From: Capsulimonas corticalis
GTDB lineage: Bacteria > Armatimonadota > Armatimonadia > Armatimonadales > Capsulimonadaceae
Assembly: GCF_003574315.2 (NCBI RefSeq)
Contig: NZ_AP025739.1
Location: forward strand, 2,914,001-2,978,000
Length of the DNA stretch: 64,000 nucleotides
Direction: 5' to 3'
Part shown: positions 18,699 to 63,017 of the stretch, in pieces
Position numbering within the stretch: position 1 is the stretch's first letter
Layout: every line of letters begins with the position of its first letter
Notes under the pieces: generated by a model
Database searches by the model: none
Told to the model about the DNA's origin: nothing
The model's input: only the letters and a program-made list of their open reading frames with translations
Position numbers and translations under genes: made by a program

Positions 18699-18738
18699 AA
18701 AAATCGCCGCCGGCCTGTACAGGCCGGCGGCGATTTTT
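18699..18738. terminator. Bidirectional terminator, perfect 40-bp palindrome
   Basis: AAAAATCGCCGCCGGCCTGT and its exact complement form a 20-bp stem with almost no loop, ending in TTTTT on both strands. It separates the convergent GH2 and metallo-beta-lactamase-fold genes. Confidence 0.9.
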
Positions 18739-21481: not shown

Positions 21482-21525
21482 AAAGACGCGCGAAAATAAA
21501 TTTAAATTTATTTTCGCGCGTCTTT
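21482..21525. terminator. Bidirectional terminator, perfect 44-bp palindrome
   Basis: AAAGACGCGCGAAAATAAAT and its complement form a 22-bp stem with T-runs on both sides (TCTTTTTT to the right). It ends the leftward GH51 transcript just 6 bp after the stop codon. Confidence 0.9.
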
Positions 21526-51328: not shown

Positions 51329-53434
51329 TTATTCTTCGCTGAGCCAGAGGATCGCGGTGACGCCGCGCGGGTAGTATCGGCTTCCCAGCGCGCGTCCCGA
51401 AACCATCTGATCGCTCCAGGCCCAGTAGCTGAGTTCGGGATCCAGAAGCCATTCGACATGCGCGGCGTCGGCGTTCGCCGTCACCATCGCGTGATCGATC
51501 CCAAGCACGGCCCGCGCGACGTGCTGCGCCAAATAGATCTTGCTCAGCCAGGAGTTATTGCTGGTCGAGGAAAGCTTCCAGCCTCCATCTGGGAACAAGC
51601 AAACGCCGGGTTTGAGGACGTTCTGGAAATGTGTCTTCAGAGCGCCGAGGAGATTTCCGAAGCGTCCTTCTGGATCGAGGGCGTCGCGGTCGCCATGGAA
51701 GTGGGGAAACACAAGTCCTTCGATGGCGGAGAGGATGCGGGCCGTGTTGCCTTCGCCGATCACTGCCGGGATGCAGCAGCCTTCCAGGGATTGCGCGATC
51801 GTGCGCGCGCAAAGATCGGCCTGCCGTCCCGATGTCCGCGCGAGGTCCGCGCGGCCCTGCGCCGCGAACAAGCGCTCCAGAGCGACATACGACGCCCATG
51901 TCTTGACGCCCATGTAGACGTTATTGCGCGCCTGCCCGAGCGACTTGTCCAGGCTGTCATAGGTCGTGATCTCGGCGCCGTGATCCGTGCGGCTGCTGTC
52001 GAGGCCCATCAGTCCATTGCGCTGCTCCGGATCCGGGTGATCGCGGTTCAGCAGGCTTTGCAGGCACTCTTCAAAGATGGAAAGACGGCGCGCAAGCCAC
52101 GGCTGATCGTCGGTATATGCGACATAGGTCGTGGCGCAGCAGAGCCAGTTGACGAGCTGCTCGTGCGTCATATGCGAAAAGCAGCCGTCGAGCCCCGTCT
52201 TCTCGTAGCACGAGTGGCCGGGACGGGAGAAGACATTCGCCACCCCCATATCGTGCGTGAAGCTAAGTCCGCCGGGATACAGGGCCGTGTCGCCCGGGAA
52301 ATGGACTTCGTCCCGGTAGCTGTAGGTCTCGATGAACTGATCCAGAACGTTGCGCACGGCCCAGGGATTCATCTTCAATTCGAAGAAGAGATGGTCGACG
52401 GTCAGATCGAACGTGTTGATCATTCGATACTCGCCCTCATTGACCACCCAGAGCGCCTCGCCGTCGCGATCCAGCATCTCGGTGCTGGCGCAGTACCCTC
52501 GAATGGCGTGCGCCAGCATAAAACGCTGATCTTCGGAAAGCCGGCTGTGGGCGAGGAGATCGTCCGACGCCTTCGACGCGGCCAGGATCTCCGGCGCGGC
52601 GCCAAGCGCATACGCGGCGACATCCTCAATCCGGTCAAACAGACGCGTGTAATAGTACGAGCAGTCGATGCCCGATGTGACGATCCCCCCGCGATAGAAA
52701 CAGACAGCGAACTCGAATGTCCGCCGCTCGCCGGCGGGGACATCCATCAACAGCGCCCCCGCGACGCCCAGGCCGAAATCGAGATTCTCCGAGCGTTCTT
52801 CGAGAATGTCCGTGAGACGAAACCCCAGTCCGCACCGCACGTCCGCGTCTTGTGTGGCGATCGCGAGATGTCGTCCCTGGCCGACGCCGCGAACGCCGTC
52901 CGCTTTTCCGTCCCCCAGCACGCGCATGGCGGAGTAGGGATCGTCGCCCTGAAACCCGAAAAAGGCGCGTCGGGAGTGAGCGCCGCGCGTGTTGTCCACC
53001 GTCAGCTCGCACAGGACCGCCGGGACGAGCGCGCGCCGCAGGTCTTCCCGCTCCGCCAATTCCGGATCGGGGATCGACCGCACGGGGGAATGAATCCGAA
53101 ACGTCAGATCGCCCGCGCTCCAGGTGTCCGTTCCCAGCTGAAACTCTCTGCGGATCCCGCCGCGCTCAAACGAACGCAGCTGCGCCGCGCTTGCGAGCGG
53201 CGCGTGCAGCCCCGCCTCATAACGCTCACTCTCGCTTCGGGCGGACACTTCCTCGTAAAACGGGAGCAGTTCATAGCGCAGCGGCTCTTCACTCTCCAGT
53301 CCAATGTAGATATTCTGGTTCGCCGGCCGGCCAAGCTCCAGCCCCAGACCGCCCGACGCGCCCGGAAAGCCCAGCGTGAAGCTGGCGAAAGCGCCGATAG
53401 GCGCATGATGCGTATTGAAAAAGATATTTTGCAT
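51329..53434 (-). CDS. GH52 beta-xylosidase
   Basis: A 701-residue intracellular xylosidase matching the well-known Geobacillus enzymes almost end to end. N-terminus: NIFFNTHHAPIGAFASFTLG. Then KAGD-type WSAGDLTFRIHSPV, ARRAFFGF-like HSRRAFFGFQGDDPY and FAVCFYRGGIVTSGID. The nucleophile Glu335 lies in WVVNEGEYRMINTFDLTVDH, the same residue number as in Geobacillus XynB; the acid-base Asp region is MGLDSSRTDHGAEITTYDSL. It ends YYPRGVTAILWLSEE. GH52 is a small family. The promoter and a half-operator are shared in style with the divergent DUF1559 gene. Confidence 0.95.
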   Translation of the reverse strand: MQNIFFNTHHAPIGAFASFTLGFPGASGGLGLELGRPANQNIYIGLESEEPLRYELLPFYEEVSARSESERYEAGLHAPLASAAQLRSFERGGIRREFQLGTDTWSAGDLTFRIHSPVRSIPDPELAEREDLRRALVPAVLCELTVDNTRGAHSRRAFFGFQGDDPYSAMRVLGDGKADGVRGVGQGRHLAIATQDADVRCGLGFRLTDILEERSENLDFGLGVAGALLMDVPAGERRTFEFAVCFYRGGIVTSGIDCSYYYTRLFDRIEDVAAYALGAAPEILAASKASDDLLAHSRLSEDQRFMLAHAIRGYCASTEMLDRDGEALWVVNEGEYRMINTFDLTVDHLFFELKMNPWAVRNVLDQFIETYSYRDEVHFPGDTALYPGGLSFTHDMGVANVFSRPGHSCYEKTGLDGCFSHMTHEQLVNWLCCATTYVAYTDDQPWLARRLSIFEECLQSLLNRDHPDPEQRNGLMGLDSSRTDHGAEITTYDSLDKSLGQARNNVYMGVKTWASYVALERLFAAQGRADLARTSGRQADLCARTIAQSLEGCCIPAVIGEGNTARILSAIEGLVFPHFHGDRDALDPEGRFGNLLGALKTHFQNVLKPGVCLFPDGGWKLSSTSNNSWLSKIYLAQHVARAVLGIDHAMVTANADAAHVEWLLDPELSYWAWSDQMVSGRALGSRYYPRGVTAILWLSEE

Positions 53435-53455: not shown

Positions 53456-53504
53456 GTTAACGTTATATCGCTGTTATTATATCAGCCCCTTCGCCATTTG
53501 GCAA
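53456..53504 (-). promoter_or_regulatory. GH52 promoter with half-operator at the transcription start
   Basis: Leftward TTGCCA (53504-53499), a 17-bp spacer and TATAAT (53481-53476). At about +1 to +14 lies GATATAACGTTAAC (53469-53456), which matches 13 of 14 bases of the left part of the 22-bp palindrome at 53599-53620. The right half is degraded here. Confidence 0.7.
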
Positions 53505-53563
53505 CCACCAAATATCACGCGCGGAAGGCCGCAGTGTTCTCTTTGCCTCGGTAATAATTTTTG

Positions 53564-53620
53564 TTGACACAACGGCGAGACCGTTGTATAATGACCTTGA
53601 TATACCGTTAACGGTATATC
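53564..53620 (+). promoter_or_regulatory. Consensus promoter with two palindromes before DUF1559 no. 2
   Basis: TTGACA (53564-53569), a 17-bp spacer and TATAAT (53587-53592). Between the boxes ACAACGG and CCGTTGT (53569-53587) form a perfect inverted repeat with a 5-bp gap. At +1 begins a perfect 22-bp palindrome (53599-53620) whose left half is GATATACCGTT. Two regulators, or one regulator at two sites, could act here; the 22-mer looks like a LacI-family operator. LacI genes lie 1.3 and 2.4 kb downstream. Confidence 0.8.
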
Positions 53621-53689
53621 AGCCAGTCATCATTTCCCTTGACGAAGGCCGCCTGGGAGCGTCCTCGTGCTTCAAATGGAGGAACGAAT

Positions 53690-54598
53690 ATGTTTCGCAA
53701 ACACAACACCAAAACGAATTCAGGATTTACTCTCATCGAGCTTCTCGTTGTTATTGCCATCATTGCAATATTGGCAGCGATCCTTTTCCCGGTTTTTGCG
53801 CAGGCTCGCGAAAAAGCGCGCGCCATTGCGTGCCTGTCGAATATGAAGCAGCTTGGTCTGGGCGTAATGCAATACACGCAGGACAACGACGAAGGCCTGC
53901 CCAGCGGCACGAACGGATACGGCGGCGGCTCGGGGTGGGCCGGCCAGCTTTATACATATGTGAAGAGCAAAGGCGTCTTCCACTGCCCGAATGACTCGAC
54001 CGCTCCCGGGACGGCGGGCAGTCAACCCGGCGCTCCATCCTCCTATGGCCTTAACTCGAACTTTTCTTATGGCACGGCCTACTCTGGCTGCGCCGGGCCT
54101 CACGGATTCTGGACGCTTCCTAAGCTCAACGCGCCAGCGAAAACGGTGATGATTTTTGAGGTCCAGGGCAGTCAGAACTACGATGTCTCCACGGAGGTCG
54201 ATCCCAGCAATCCTAACAATACGCTCAATGGCTGCGGCGGTTCGCCCGCAGGCAATGGGACCGGTCAGCCCGGTTACAGCCTCTCGGCGCTGTCGGGGTA
54301 TGGTTCGCCGACCTTCGCCACCGGTTACACGAATGGGATCAACGCCTCCAGCGTCACGGGCGGGCTTGCGACTTACAACAATCAGCCGGCGGGTCGGCAT
54401 CAGGGCGGCGCCAACTATATGTTCGCGGACGGTCATGCGAAGTACTTGCTGCCGAGCAAAGTCTCGGCTGGCGTGAACAACTTCAATGGAGAAAACGCGA
54501 AGCAGGATTACAGCGATAACCATAATCCCTTGGCGGCGGGCACGAGCGGCGCCTTCGCGGACGGTTCGCAGCCGGCGGCGACTTACAGCTTGATCTGA
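53690..54598 (+). CDS. DUF1559 family pilin-like protein no. 2
   Basis: A 302-residue pseudopilin-like protein. The class III signal is [20 protein letters not shown], followed by [20 protein letters not shown] and [20 protein letters not shown]. The body is Gly/Asn/Ser-rich. The C-terminus carries [18 protein letters not shown] (H-x9-DG). GGAGG lies 7 nt before ATG 53690. It is driven by a consensus promoter overlapped by a 22-bp palindrome and is followed after 30 bp by a small lipoprotein gene, so its synthesis appears to respond to sugar-type signals. Confidence 0.93.
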
Positions 54599-54628: not shown

Positions 54629-54844
54629 ATGATGACACGAATTCGGGCAATATCATACGCTGCCGCGATCGTTGTGCTGGGCGTCCTTCCAATCGCGGGA
54701 TGCGGCGGCCGGACGGCGACGGGCAGCGCGCCGGCGGCTGCTACTCCGCAAAGCGAAGCTCAGACGCAGGCGGCGAAGTGGGATGCGCAGGCGGCCAATT
54801 TGAGGGCGGCGCAGCAGGCCCAGCAAAATGGGGCGCCGCGCTGA
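54629..54844 (+). CDS. Small lipoprotein paired with DUF1559 no. 2
   Basis: A 71-residue lipoprotein. The signal segment AISYAAAIVVLGVLPIAGCG has a lipobox IAGC. The mature part is short, Ala/Gln-rich and likely helical (AQTQAAKWDAQAANLRAAQQ). AGGAG sits just before ATG 54629 and 5 nt before ATG 54632; either may be the start. A similar small lipoprotein follows DUF1559 no. 3 (61710-61952), so the pairing is probably functional, for instance in assembly or anchoring of the pilin-like product. Confidence 0.75.
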   Translation: MMTRIRAISYAAAIVVLGVLPIAGCGGRTATGSAPAAATPQSEAQTQAAKWDAQAANLRAAQQAQQNGAPR

Positions 54845-54871: not shown

Positions 54872-54908
54872 GAACCGATGATGGGATATCCCGTCATCGG
54901 TTCTTTTT
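54872..54908 (+). terminator. Rho-independent terminator after the lipoprotein gene
   Basis: GAACCGATGA pairs with TCATCGGTTC around GGGATATCCC, then TTTTT at 54904-54908. It separates the DUF1559-lipoprotein unit from the LacI genes. Confidence 0.9.
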
Positions 54909-54969: not shown

Positions 54970-56019
54970 ATGGCTAAAAAAGGACCGACGATCAAGGATG
55001 TCGCCGCCCATGCCGGGGTCAGCGTGATGGCGGTCTCACGCGTCTGTAATCCGAACGGCGCCGGACAGGTCTCGGAGGCGATGCGTCGCAAGGTGATGGA
55101 GGCGATCGAGACGCTGGGGTATCGCCCGGACACTCTGGCGCAATCGTTGCGCCGGCGCCGGTCCGACACGGTGGGCTTCTATAGTAATTATCATGGGGCG
55201 TTTGTTTCGGATGATGAATTTGGGCGCAGCATCTTCACCGGTCTTCAGGATGCTTCGACGGAGCTTGAGCAGGATCTGCTGATCTTCACGGTCCCTGAGA
55301 CGCCGCAAGCGCCGAGCAAGATCGTGCATGAACTGAGCACGAGCAAAGTGGACGGCGTGATCTTCCTGCCGCGCGCCGGCGACGAGGAGCTGGCGAAACT
55401 GCTGATCGCCTCGCATCAAAATGTGATCGCGATTGGTGAAGCCATTTCCGGAATGACGTCGGTGACCGCGCAGGACATCGACGGCTCGCGTCGTCTTGCC
55501 GAGCACCTGCATTCGCGCGGGCACCGGCATGTGATGTATCGCCAATGCGGGTATGGCCTGGTGTCTGGAGAGCGTAGAGCGGCCTCGTTCCGGGCGGCGG
55601 CGGACGCGCTTGGCATGCAAGTTACGGGGACGCGGACGTCCAGCATCATGGACGATTTGGATGATGAGGAACGCGAGCGGATCCGAACCGCCCAGGACAG
55701 CAATCTGACGGCGATCGTGGGCTGGCGCGACATGTCGGCGGTGAAGGCGGTTGTTTATTGCCGGGAAATCGGCTTGCGAATTCCCACGGAGATGGCGGTC
55801 GCTGGGTTCGACGCCCTTACCCCGTTTCTCTGTCCGCCCGAAATTAATCTGACGACCATTGAAGTCGACTGGGCGCGGATCGCGAAGCGCGCGGTCGGCT
55901 ATGTCGTCAACGGCGGCGATTTTTCCGGGCCTGGCGAGCCCGGGGATGTGGTCGTCCATCGAGACGGCGCAGTGGAAATCGCGATCGATTGTCCGCTCGT
56001 GATCGGCAATACGACGTGA
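54970..56019 (+). CDS. LacI-family transcriptional regulator A
   Basis: A 349-residue regulator. The DNA-binding domain reads TIKDVAAHAGVSVMAVSRVC, followed by the hinge helix region RPDTLAQSLRRRRSD. The effector domain has GFYSNYHGAFVSDDEFGRSI, DGVIFLPRAGDEELAKLL and VAGFDALTPFLCPP. A -10 TATAAT lies at 54933-54938. ATG 54970 is the only sensible start. It is followed by a second LacI gene after 34 bp, so both are probably one transcript. One of them may bind the 22-bp palindrome upstream. Confidence 0.9.
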   Translation: MAKKGPTIKDVAAHAGVSVMAVSRVCNPNGAGQVSEAMRRKVMEAIETLGYRPDTLAQSLRRRRSDTVGFYSNYHGAFVSDDEFGRSIFTGLQDASTELEQDLLIFTVPETPQAPSKIVHELSTSKVDGVIFLPRAGDEELAKLLIASHQNVIAIGEAISGMTSVTAQDIDGSRRLAEHLHSRGHRHVMYRQCGYGLVSGERRAASFRAAADALGMQVTGTRTSSIMDDLDDEERERIRTAQDSNLTAIVGWRDMSAVKAVVYCREIGLRIPTEMAVAGFDALTPFLCPPEINLTTIEVDWARIAKRAVGYVVNGGDFSGPGEPGDVVVHRDGAVEIAIDCPLVIGNTT

Positions 56020-56053
56020 CCTGGGACGGCGCGAGGATAGGATCGAAATCGTG

Positions 56054-57067
56054 ATGGGGAAAAAGGCGCCGACACTCAAGGATGTCGCCCAGAGGGCCGG
56101 CGTCAGCCGGATGGCGGTGTCGGCGGTGATCAACAACATGCAGTCCACGGTGCGCGTGGCGCCGGCGACGCGCGAGCGGATCTTCGAGGCGATGGCCGAG
56201 CTGCGTTATCAGCCGAATGTGACCGCGCGCTCACTGCGCCGGCAGCAGACCGACACGATCGGTTTCTATAACGGGCACGGCTACATCGATATGCGCGATC
56301 CGTTCGCCCCGAGCGTCTTCCAGGGGCTTCAGTCCGCCGCGTCCTCGTTTTCCAATCACTTGCTGCTGTATAATGGTTTTCACTTGAAGGAGCAGGACGC
56401 CGTACGCCATAAGCTGCTGAGCAGCAAGGCCGACGGGGTGGTGATCTGGCCCGCGCCGGGCGATGAGGCCCTGGTGGCGTCGCTCGCGGGAACCGATAAG
56501 CCGCTGATCCAGTTCGCCGAAGCTTATCCCGGCCTGCCGGCCGTCGTCACCGACGATTACCGAGGCGCGCACGCGCTGGCCGCGCATCTAGCCGAGCGCG
56601 GACGCACGAATATCCTGTTCCGTCGCGGCGTCGCGCCATTACGGTCCGAGGTCGATCGGTATCAAGCCTTTGCCGACGCCGCCGGGGAATTCGGTCTTTC
56701 CCTCACCACGACCATGCCGGCGGACCGGTTCGACCACCTGACCGACCAGGAAAAAGAGCTGATCCGGCGCGGCTCGCCCGCCGGCCCATTCTCCGCCGTC
56801 GCCTGCTGGCACGACGCTTCGGCGATGCAGGTGATGCGGCACTGCTTGCGCGAAGGTATCCAGGTTCCGGACGACATCGCCCTCGCCGGCATCGACGGCT
56901 TCGCCTGGCGCGAATTCCCCCCGGAGCGCCCGCTGACGACGGTCGTGATCGACTGGTCGCTCCTCGCCCACCAATGCGTCGAACTGCTGATCGAACGCGT
57001 CCACGGCCGCGAAATCCCCGATCGCACCATTGTTCCGGGACGCCTGCGGATTGGGGCGACGACTTAG
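56054..57067 (+). CDS. LacI-family transcriptional regulator B
   Basis: A 337-residue regulator resembling LacI A: TLKDVAQRAGVSRMAVSAVI for the HTH, then QPNVTARSLRRQQTDTIGFY as hinge. The effector domain has DGVVIWPAPGDEALVASLAG and IALAGIDGFAWREFPPERPL. The similar EFPPE/LCPPE patch suggests A and B arose by duplication. GTG 56051 and ATG 56054 are adjacent starts; AGGA is 11 nt before the ATG. It converges with the GH3 gene across a MITE-like repeat. Confidence 0.9.
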   Translation: MGKKAPTLKDVAQRAGVSRMAVSAVINNMQSTVRVAPATRERIFEAMAELRYQPNVTARSLRRQQTDTIGFYNGHGYIDMRDPFAPSVFQGLQSAASSFSNHLLLYNGFHLKEQDAVRHKLLSSKADGVVIWPAPGDEALVASLAGTDKPLIQFAEAYPGLPAVVTDDYRGAHALAAHLAERGRTNILFRRGVAPLRSEVDRYQAFADAAGEFGLSLTTTMPADRFDHLTDQEKELIRRGSPAGPFSAVACWHDASAMQVMRHCLREGIQVPDDIALAGIDGFAWREFPPERPLTTVVIDWSLLAHQCVELLIERVHGREIPDRTIVPGRLRIGATT

Positions 57068-60311: not shown

Positions 60312-60395
60312 ATGGCGCCACGAATGTATATTATGGCGCCATCTTCGGCCAGATGAGCCATCCGTGGCGACACAGAGATAGGAATGAGATATAAT
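60312..60395. promoter_or_regulatory. Paired TGGCGCCA palindromes in the GH3/LacI divergent promoter
   Basis: ATGGCGCCA at 60312-60320 and 60333-60341, 21 bp centre to centre (two helical turns). Between them, leftward, lies an AT-rich ATAATATACA that would be the GH3 -10. Rightward, GCGACA (60367-60372), a 17-bp spacer and TATAAT (60390-60395) serve the LacI gene. The layout fits repression of GH3 by LacI C. The sequence after the rightward -10, AACAGCAATGAC, resembles that before the GntR/LacI gene at 2240-2258. Confidence 0.65.
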
Positions 60396-60427
60396 AACAG
60401 CAATGACGGCAATTATCCCGCCGGTCA

Positions 60428-61963: not shown

Positions 61964-62875
61964 CTATTGCCATTTGTCACAAGCGCTCGGCCCTGAGTTA
62001 GGAATTCCGTTCTTTGCTTCCGGATACCACGAGGACACTCCGTAAGGTGAATTTTCCTGGGCGGGGCCAAAAATGTATTTGCACCATCCAGAAACGCCGG
62101 CAAAAGTTCCGAGCTTCATGGATTTCACATGTCCGTCACAGAAGACCATGTTGCATGTGCCGGTGTGTCGGAAACGCGGCATCTGGGACGCGAGAGGATA
62201 GATGGCCCATTTGCCTTGGTCGGTGTCTCCGCGCGTCGGAGCGCTGAGATCGAAATTATTGTCCCACCAAGCCCATGCAACTGAAGAAAAACGTACGTCT
62301 GAAAAGTCGCTCGCAGAGCCGTTGGCTCCCATATAACCCTTTTCAACAATAAGCACTTTGTCAGCGGGATTGACAATCTGCGCGAGCGACGCGGAAGGAT
62401 ACTGAACACCGATATTATTTCCCCAAGCGAAATGGCTCATATCACCGCCAATCGCTTCATTCATGCCATATTGACGGGATGCATTCTGGACCGGAAAGTC
62501 AGGACAGTTCCAAACGCCGCCGGTCAACTCGAAGTGTCCTGTATTTGCGCTGGCTACCTGACTGCCGTTCTTTACATAAGGATTCACAACCCACTGCCAG
62601 GTAACAGGGTCGTTTGAACTCGATCCTGAAACTTTAGCCCAGTCTCCCGCATCGGATTCACGCTGAATGAGCGGGTAAATCTCATCGTAGTCCTGGACGT
62701 ATTGCAGCATCGCTAGTCCAAGTTGTTTTTCATTGGAAAGACAGGAAATCTGACGCGCCTTTTCCCGAGCTTTGGCGAAAACCGGGAACAGAATAGCGGC
62801 TAGTATCGCAATGATAGCGATAACTACGAGGAGCTCAATGAGCGTAAATCCACGAGACTGATTGATCTTCAGCAT
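61964..62875 (-). CDS. DUF1559 family pilin-like protein no. 3
   Basis: A 303-residue protein. Class III signal: [20 protein letters not shown], then [20 protein letters not shown] and [20 protein letters not shown]. The C-terminal motif is [19 protein letters not shown] (H-x9-DG). AAAGGA lies 7 nt before ATG 62875; the frame to 62896 has no ribosome site. It is driven by a consensus promoter and followed after 11 bp by the lipoprotein gene. GC content is visibly lower than that of the surrounding genes, especially at third positions, suggesting a different history from the other two copies. Confidence 0.93.
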
Positions 62876-63017
62876 GATGCTATCCTTTCTGGACAACGAC
62901 GAACGGTTAATGAGTACTGGAAAAATGCGTCACAGACGCTGGTTTACGTTGGTTCCTTTTAGACTTTTTGGCTTCAAAGCGCAGAAATCATTCAAAATCA
63001 ATTCAACCTTGAGTTCG

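Follow-up and report, generated by a model that had tools for sequence, protein, structure and literature searches.

Introduction

Local repressors of the LacI and GntR families control glycoside hydrolase and sugar transport genes from operators placed at the transcription start, as in regulons of the CcpA, GalR and CelR type. A site that extends from +1 to about +22 is placed where repressors classically act by occlusion. Many LacI operators are centred on CG, and a TTAA centre is unusual for proteins of this family.

The DUF1559 proteins form an expanded family, whose members have been proposed to be solute-binding proteins (PMC2754498, PMC4807772). In R. baltica, salt, cold and heat elicit a response from family members (PMC2754498). 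In Tuwongella they are prepilin-motif proteins whose flanking genes often encode products with a type I or type II signal peptide (PMC8567305), and in P. limnophila they constitute the largest paralog group, two members of which are essential (PMC10632474). Type IV pilins of Ruminococcus rise on cellulose and were proposed to take part in adhesion to cellulose (PMC3672088), and the pili-like fibres of planctomycete crateriform structures bind dextran (PMC5394234). In the literature that we searched, which leaves most subscription journals outside it, no published link was found between DUF1559 and sugar regulators or glycosidase regulons.

Here we report an analysis of the region between divergent GH52 beta-xylosidase and DUF1559 genes in a 64,000-nt stretch of the Capsulimonas corticalis genome (the window), of the sites that resemble its putative operator elsewhere in the genome, and of the pairing of DUF1559 genes with sugar regulators in the phylum. 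In our main reading, which we hold with a probability of about 0.72, GATATACCGTTAAC(GGTATATC) is a xylan-utilisation operator, the DUF1559 gene belongs to its regulon, the repressor is most likely LacI A, and the DUF1559 product would be a regulon-specific pseudopilin.

Results

Promoters and putative operator between the GH52 and DUF1559 genes

The intergenic region contains two strong divergent promoters of the sigma-70 type, where 0.6 would be expected (Table 1). The palindrome TGATATACCGTTAACGGTATATCA starts about 6 nt past the DUF1559 -10 element, which is the predicted +1. The initial annotation had placed a perfect 22-bp palindrome at this point; its position and perfection held, and the length had to be corrected to 24 bp, with one base more on each side. 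Longer perfect gapless palindromes occur at only two places in the window, 18699-18738 (40 bp) and 21482-21525 (44 bp); these have A/T-rich ends and are probably bidirectional terminators. Two further elements noticed at the outset were found as described, namely the recurrence of the left 14 bases at the GH52 +1, where GATATAACGTTAAC lies 6 nt past the -10 element and differs from GATATACCGTTAAC by one change, and the perfect 7-bp inverted repeat in the DUF1559 promoter spacer, possibly a second contact site. A comparable element, ACGGCGCCGT, is carried in the promoter spacer of the sugar importer described below.

Table 1. Features of the GH52-DUF1559 locus (window coordinates) and of the two distant targets (G000, source genome)
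Feature	Position	Strand	Description
GH52 beta-xylosidase	51329-53434	-	PF03512, E 1.5e-174, 581 bits, profile 1-413/413
Half-site GATATAACGTTAAC	53456-53469	-	putative operator at +1 of GH52 transcript
GH52 promoter TTGCCA-17-TATAAT	53476-53504	-	11/12 consensus match, TG before -10; -10 TATAAT at 53476-53481
DUF1559 promoter TTGACA-17-TATAAT	53564-53592	+	12/12 consensus match
Inverted repeat ACAACGG-N5-CCGTTGT	53569-53575/53581-53587		7 bp, fills DUF1559 promoter spacer
Perfect palindrome TGATATACCGTTAACGGTATATCA	53598-53621		24 bp, putative operator, +1 to about +22 of DUF1559 transcript
DUF1559 / SBP_bac_10 prepilin-type protein	53690-54598	+	PF07963, TIGR02532, PF07596, TIGR04294
Putative lipoprotein	54629-54844	+	71 aa, lipobox IAGC; directly 3' of DUF1559
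Intrinsic-terminator-like hairpin and T-run	54872-54908	+	between DUF1559 unit and LacI A; read from sequence
LacI-family regulator A	54970-56019	+	PF00356; candidate repressor
LacI-family regulator B	56051-57067	+	PF00356; 37% identical to A; alternative candidate
GH10 site TTGACA..TATAAT-N8-GATATACCGTTAAC	G000:C1:5390744		about 45 bp before secreted GH10 gene start
GntR-type hybrid regulator	G000:C1:5389223-5390479		divergent from GH10 gene
Importer site TTGACA-17-TATAAT-N6-GATATACCGTCAACAGTAGATC	G000:C1:316831		before ABC solute-binding protein gene
LacI-family fusion regulator	G000:C1:320066-321475 (L171:8067-9476)		after importer

The palindrome might alternatively act as a 5' hairpin in the DUF1559 mRNA, with an effect on stability or attenuation, rather than as a protein-binding operator: a stem of 9 bp closed by a 4-nt loop can form from the first 22 nt, and the leader has a folding energy of -28.6 kcal/mol (z -2.1). 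However, the GH52 copy and that at the GH10 xylanase gene (see below) consist of the left half only, from which no stem can form. Conservation of one half at +1, without a stem at GH52, favours DNA recognition, and we consider the RNA explanation very improbable.

The assignment of the xylosidase rests on a match over the full length of the GH52 profile. The lipoprotein gene is probably co-transcribed with DUF1559, and two LacI-family regulators are encoded near the operator. Small lipobox ORFs follow 18 of 147 DUF1559 genes in the genome at a distance of up to 300 bp and on the same strand, the lipoprotein gene of this locus included, and their products may be functional partners of DUF1559. 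Elsewhere in the window, a second DUF1559 gene (61964-62896, minus strand) adjoins another LacI-family gene, LacI C, near a GH3 gene, with no clear operator seen. The GH3-LacI C intergenic region holds the palindrome TGGCGCCA twice (60313-60320 and 60334-60341, 21 bp apart), possibly an operator of another regulator. The GH52 promoter (53470-53483, minus strand, -10 element and downstream) also has GATATAATAACAGC in common with that of LacI C (60388-60401, plus strand), either by chance or as a common element.

Genome-wide occurrence of the half-site

The exact half-site GATATANCGTTAAC is present in four copies in the 7.645-Mb genome, and the reversed control pattern in none. Three of these copies lie at the GH52-DUF1559 locus, two of them being the halves of the palindrome; the sole exact occurrence outside the locus, in a search of the whole genome, is in the start region of a GH10 xylanase promoter. 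Neither the exact half-site nor the operator was found in 20 related genomes. When the site was required 4-9 bases behind a -10 element (TATAAT-N4-9-GATNTANCG), four sites were obtained genome-wide against none for the control, and all four are upstream of xylan genes or of this DUF1559 gene. The search upstream of other genes that had been suggested with the initial annotation thus yielded the GH10 promoter, with an exact copy, and the promoter of a sugar ABC importer, with one change.

With two mismatches allowed, the genome gave 55 matches against 99 in the reversed control. This lack of excess is what would be expected if the similarity reflected chance or a shared promoter composition without common control; the exact and promoter-placed sites are above their controls (four against none), however, and all four belong to genes of common function, so that we find this explanation hardly credible, even less so than the RNA hairpin. 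As the two-mismatch matches are at control level, they were discarded, and only near-exact, promoter-placed sites were counted. The one-mismatch sites L006, L007 and L008, which have neither an upstream TATAAT nor a fitting gene start, were attributed to chance, and a site at 54885 before LacI A, considered for autoregulation, was rejected since it falls inside the terminator hairpin.

Distant targets in the proposed xylan regulon

The secreted GH10 protein matches PF00331 (E 4.9e-36), and its site is offset by 2 bp relative to the other three. The importer site GATATACCGTCAACAGTAGATC retains both halves, with three mismatches to the palindrome over 22 positions. The importer unit comprises the ABC solute-binding protein gene and two more genes interpreted as encoding permeases, and directly follows an alpha-xylosidase gene (NF007940, 1278 bits against a cut-off of 606) and a GH3 gene whose product is closest to the Xyl3A xylosidase, with a score under the cut-off of that model. 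The element overlapping the predicted start is a perfect palindrome at one promoter, a near-palindrome at one and a half-site at two. Because the GH10 gene and the importer neighbourhood both have functions of the xylan type, the sequence supports a xylan regulon that includes the DUF1559 gene. The suggestion made at first, that xylan use and a pilin-like protein are under common control, gains support at the DNA level from the site at these two promoters. On this sequence evidence the case for the predicted operator and for its sharing is strong, and co-regulation of DUF1559 with the xylan genes is likely.

Candidate repressor and proposed mechanism

The likeliest binder would be LacI A, the regulator nearest to three of the five half-sites, the palindrome included. 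The palindrome is centred on TTAA and lacks the CG of typical operators, so we name LacI A as a candidate binder and present membership of a LacI operon as a candidate assignment. The same regulon and operator might instead be served by LacI B, by the GntR-type hybrid beside GH10 or by the LacI fusion after the importer: each of them neighbours one member of the regulon, LacI B follows LacI A, and the TTAA centre is atypical of LacI operators. On the other side, the strongest, palindromic site has LacI A as its closest regulator, three of the five half-sites adjoin LacI A, and adjacency of regulator and DUF1559 is the rule in the phylum. We regard one of these other binders as a serious contender at somewhat under even odds. 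No ortholog of LacI A was found in 60 relatives (best 39%), so the pair of site and regulator has no counterpart there for comparison. The LacI fusion is unusual in having an extra N-terminal region with a transposase-like helix-turn-helix (HTH_23) and a zinc-ribbon-like CxxC stretch.

Taking LacI A as the most likely repressor, we infer the following scheme for repression, inducer and the role of the DUF1559 protein. A sugar-responsive repressor would cover the transcription start at four promoters and block RNA polymerase, thereby repressing the DUF1559 gene with the small lipoprotein gene, the GH52 beta-xylosidase, the GH10 xylanase and the sugar ABC importer. A xylan breakdown product, e.g. 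xylose or a xylo-oligosaccharide, would release the repressor, and the enzymes, the importer and the pilin-like protein would then be made together. The DUF1559 product would serve as a regulon-specific surface pseudopilin that helps to capture xylan or to export enzymes.

Pairing of DUF1559 genes with sugar regulators in the genome and phylum

The genome encodes about 150 or more DUF1559 genes, 56 LacI and 48 GntR regulator matches. A DUF1559 gene lies within 3 kb of 57 of the 104 regulators, against 10.6 expected from circular shifts (maximum 23 in 2000). Within the same distance, LacI regulators near DUF1559 number 32 of 56 in the source genome (6.2 expected), 52 of 104 in a genome of the same family, G005 (14.9 expected), and 5 of 10 and 11 of 14 in two genomes from other families of the phylum, G039 and G059 (0.8 and 1.3 expected, respectively). 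Most pairs are tandem, with LacI followed by DUF1559 on the same strand (40 in G005, 5 in G039 and 10 in G059). One such LacI-DUF1559 interval (L042, G002) contains a perfect 16-bp CG-centred palindrome, GATGCAACGTTGCATC.

Among 79 other GH52 loci, none of the 63 of firmicute type has a DUF1559-type motif nearby, and one Armatimonadetes locus has such a motif about 3.5 kb away. The GH52-DUF1559 pairing is local to this genome, and with GH52 mostly unlinked to DUF1559 elsewhere, the module consists of regulator and DUF1559, the glycosidase being variable.

Potential operators were surveyed in 2.0 Mb of sequence around the DUF1559 genes of this genome. Strong inverted repeats (score >=10) were found in 10% of the 200-bp DUF1559 upstream regions against 0.1% of shuffles, some of them being terminators of the preceding gene. 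A promoter could be recognised for 93 DUF1559 genes, and in 13 of them the zone just after the -10 element has a palindrome (score >=7; 2.0 expected); the flanking zones of the same genes are also enriched (7 against 1.4 and 4 against 1.0 expected), so that the preference for the zone after -10 is only moderate. DUF1559 upstream regions share motifs with those of their own neighbours more often than with upstream regions from other DUF1559 neighbourhoods (21 cases against 2.3 expected, score >=14), a signal that stems partly from duplicated DNA. Several other DUF1559 promoters have sites with CG centres, as do most of the other clean operators there.

Other putative operators common to DUF1559 and glycosidase genes

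The layout seen at the GH52 locus, with an operator after the DUF1559 -10 element that is repeated at a nearby glycosidase promoter and a sugar regulator adjoining, recurs in the genome. TGTTATCGATAACA is common to the DUF1559 gene at 4851970 and a GH38 mannosidase gene, and TGATTATCACGTGTA to the DUF1559 gene at 5620515 and a GH35 gene. AATTGGTNNNAATGGTAA occurs at four DUF1559 promoters (1940444, 1941294, 1942377 and 6129977) and near or upstream of a GH43 gene (L080:15719-17146), a set that we propose from its sequences as a candidate second regulon. TTATCCCAGGATAA is shared by the DUF1559 gene at 3049984 and its divergent GntR gene, and a GTAAACGTTTACGCA-like site is present at the DUF1559 genes at 4883822 and 4889664 and also near a xylose-isomerase-like gene. 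Most of these shared operators occupy the same place, after the -10 element. A gene sharing an operator with the DUF1559 gene at 1665613 resembled GH16 on visual inspection; Pfam gave no match for it, and it was not retained as GH16.

The DUF1559 protein

The N-terminal prepilin cleavage/methylation motif is recognised above cut-off by both PF07963 and TIGR02532, and the protein also scores above threshold with PF07596 (50.3 bits against 23.3) and with the H-X9-DG motif model TIGR04294 (30.5 against 19). Named pilin and GspG families were matched by the N-terminal helix only and not over the full length (GspG 32.5 bits, cut-off 88.85). The structure model (pLDDT 82) has a long N-terminal helix (residues 15-65) followed by a globular part. 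A fold search of the PDB with this model returned weak or N-terminal-only pilin matches and no carbohydrate-binding fold, and the globular domain had no PDB match at E<=0.001. Across 56 DUF1559 paralogs, almost nothing changes over the first ~65 residues, and residues 120-230 vary; such a pattern would fit a constant part for assembly and a variable part for recognition.

Discussion

The best reading of the shared operators is that the expression of each DUF1559 pseudopilin is tied to that of a particular glycan regulon. Co-regulation could also be real with DUF1559 as a bystander, which rides on mobile or duplicating cassettes of sugar regulators and has a general role not specific to glycans. 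The copy number of the family here, its highly conserved N-terminal part and the reaction of R. baltica members to salt, cold and heat (PMC2754498) agree with such a role. However, the operators coincide with DUF1559 start sites and also occur at glycosidase promoters, and adjacency alone needs neither; we judge the bystander explanation unlikely, if far less so than the hairpin or chance. Extending the reading of regulon-matched expression, we tentatively propose, with more doubt than confidence, that DUF1559 proteins are substrate-matched pseudopilins: every glycan regulon of this phylum, and perhaps also of Planctomycetes, would have its own subunit, which would tip or decorate a surface fibre or secretion pseudopilus and recognise the glycan or its enzymes.

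Few families are as expanded in Planctomycetes as DUF1559, and the same is found here for this phylum. Sugar switches common to DUF1559 and glycosidase genes would supply this orphan family with predicted inducers, glycan by glycan, and their recurrent pairing gives it a testable role in plant polysaccharide use. The make-up of polysaccharide-binding surface fibres in such bacteria becomes directly testable as well.

Comparison with known systems

The xylan regulon proposed here resembles LacI and GntR regulons in its palindrome over +1, its adjacent regulator gene and its scattered targets with one substrate theme. It differs from them in that the best site is at a prepilin-type DUF1559 gene, the palindrome is TTAA-centred and the regulator is only a candidate.

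As in the DUF1559 / SBP_bac_10 paralogs of Planctomycetes, the N-methylation motif is combined with PF07596, and paralogs are very many. The DUF1559 genes of Tuwongella are flanked by signal-peptide genes (PMC8567305), and the one described here by a lipoprotein gene. Reports on Planctomycetes concern solute binding or stress (PMC2754498) and paralogy or essential copies (PMC10632474), whereas the present associations are with candidate LacI operators and glycosidase regulons. The dextran-binding planctomycete fibres are polysaccharide-binding surface fibres in DUF1559-rich bacteria; that they may be linked to DUF1559 is our suggestion and not a claim of PMC5394234.

The Ruminococcus pilins are, unlike DUF1559, ordinary small type IV pilins, for which we found no shared operator reported in PMC3672088, and DUF1559 is set apart from them by its distinct globular domain. 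Common to both cases is a pilin-type protein tied to polysaccharide (PMC3672088), here by predicted operator sharing.
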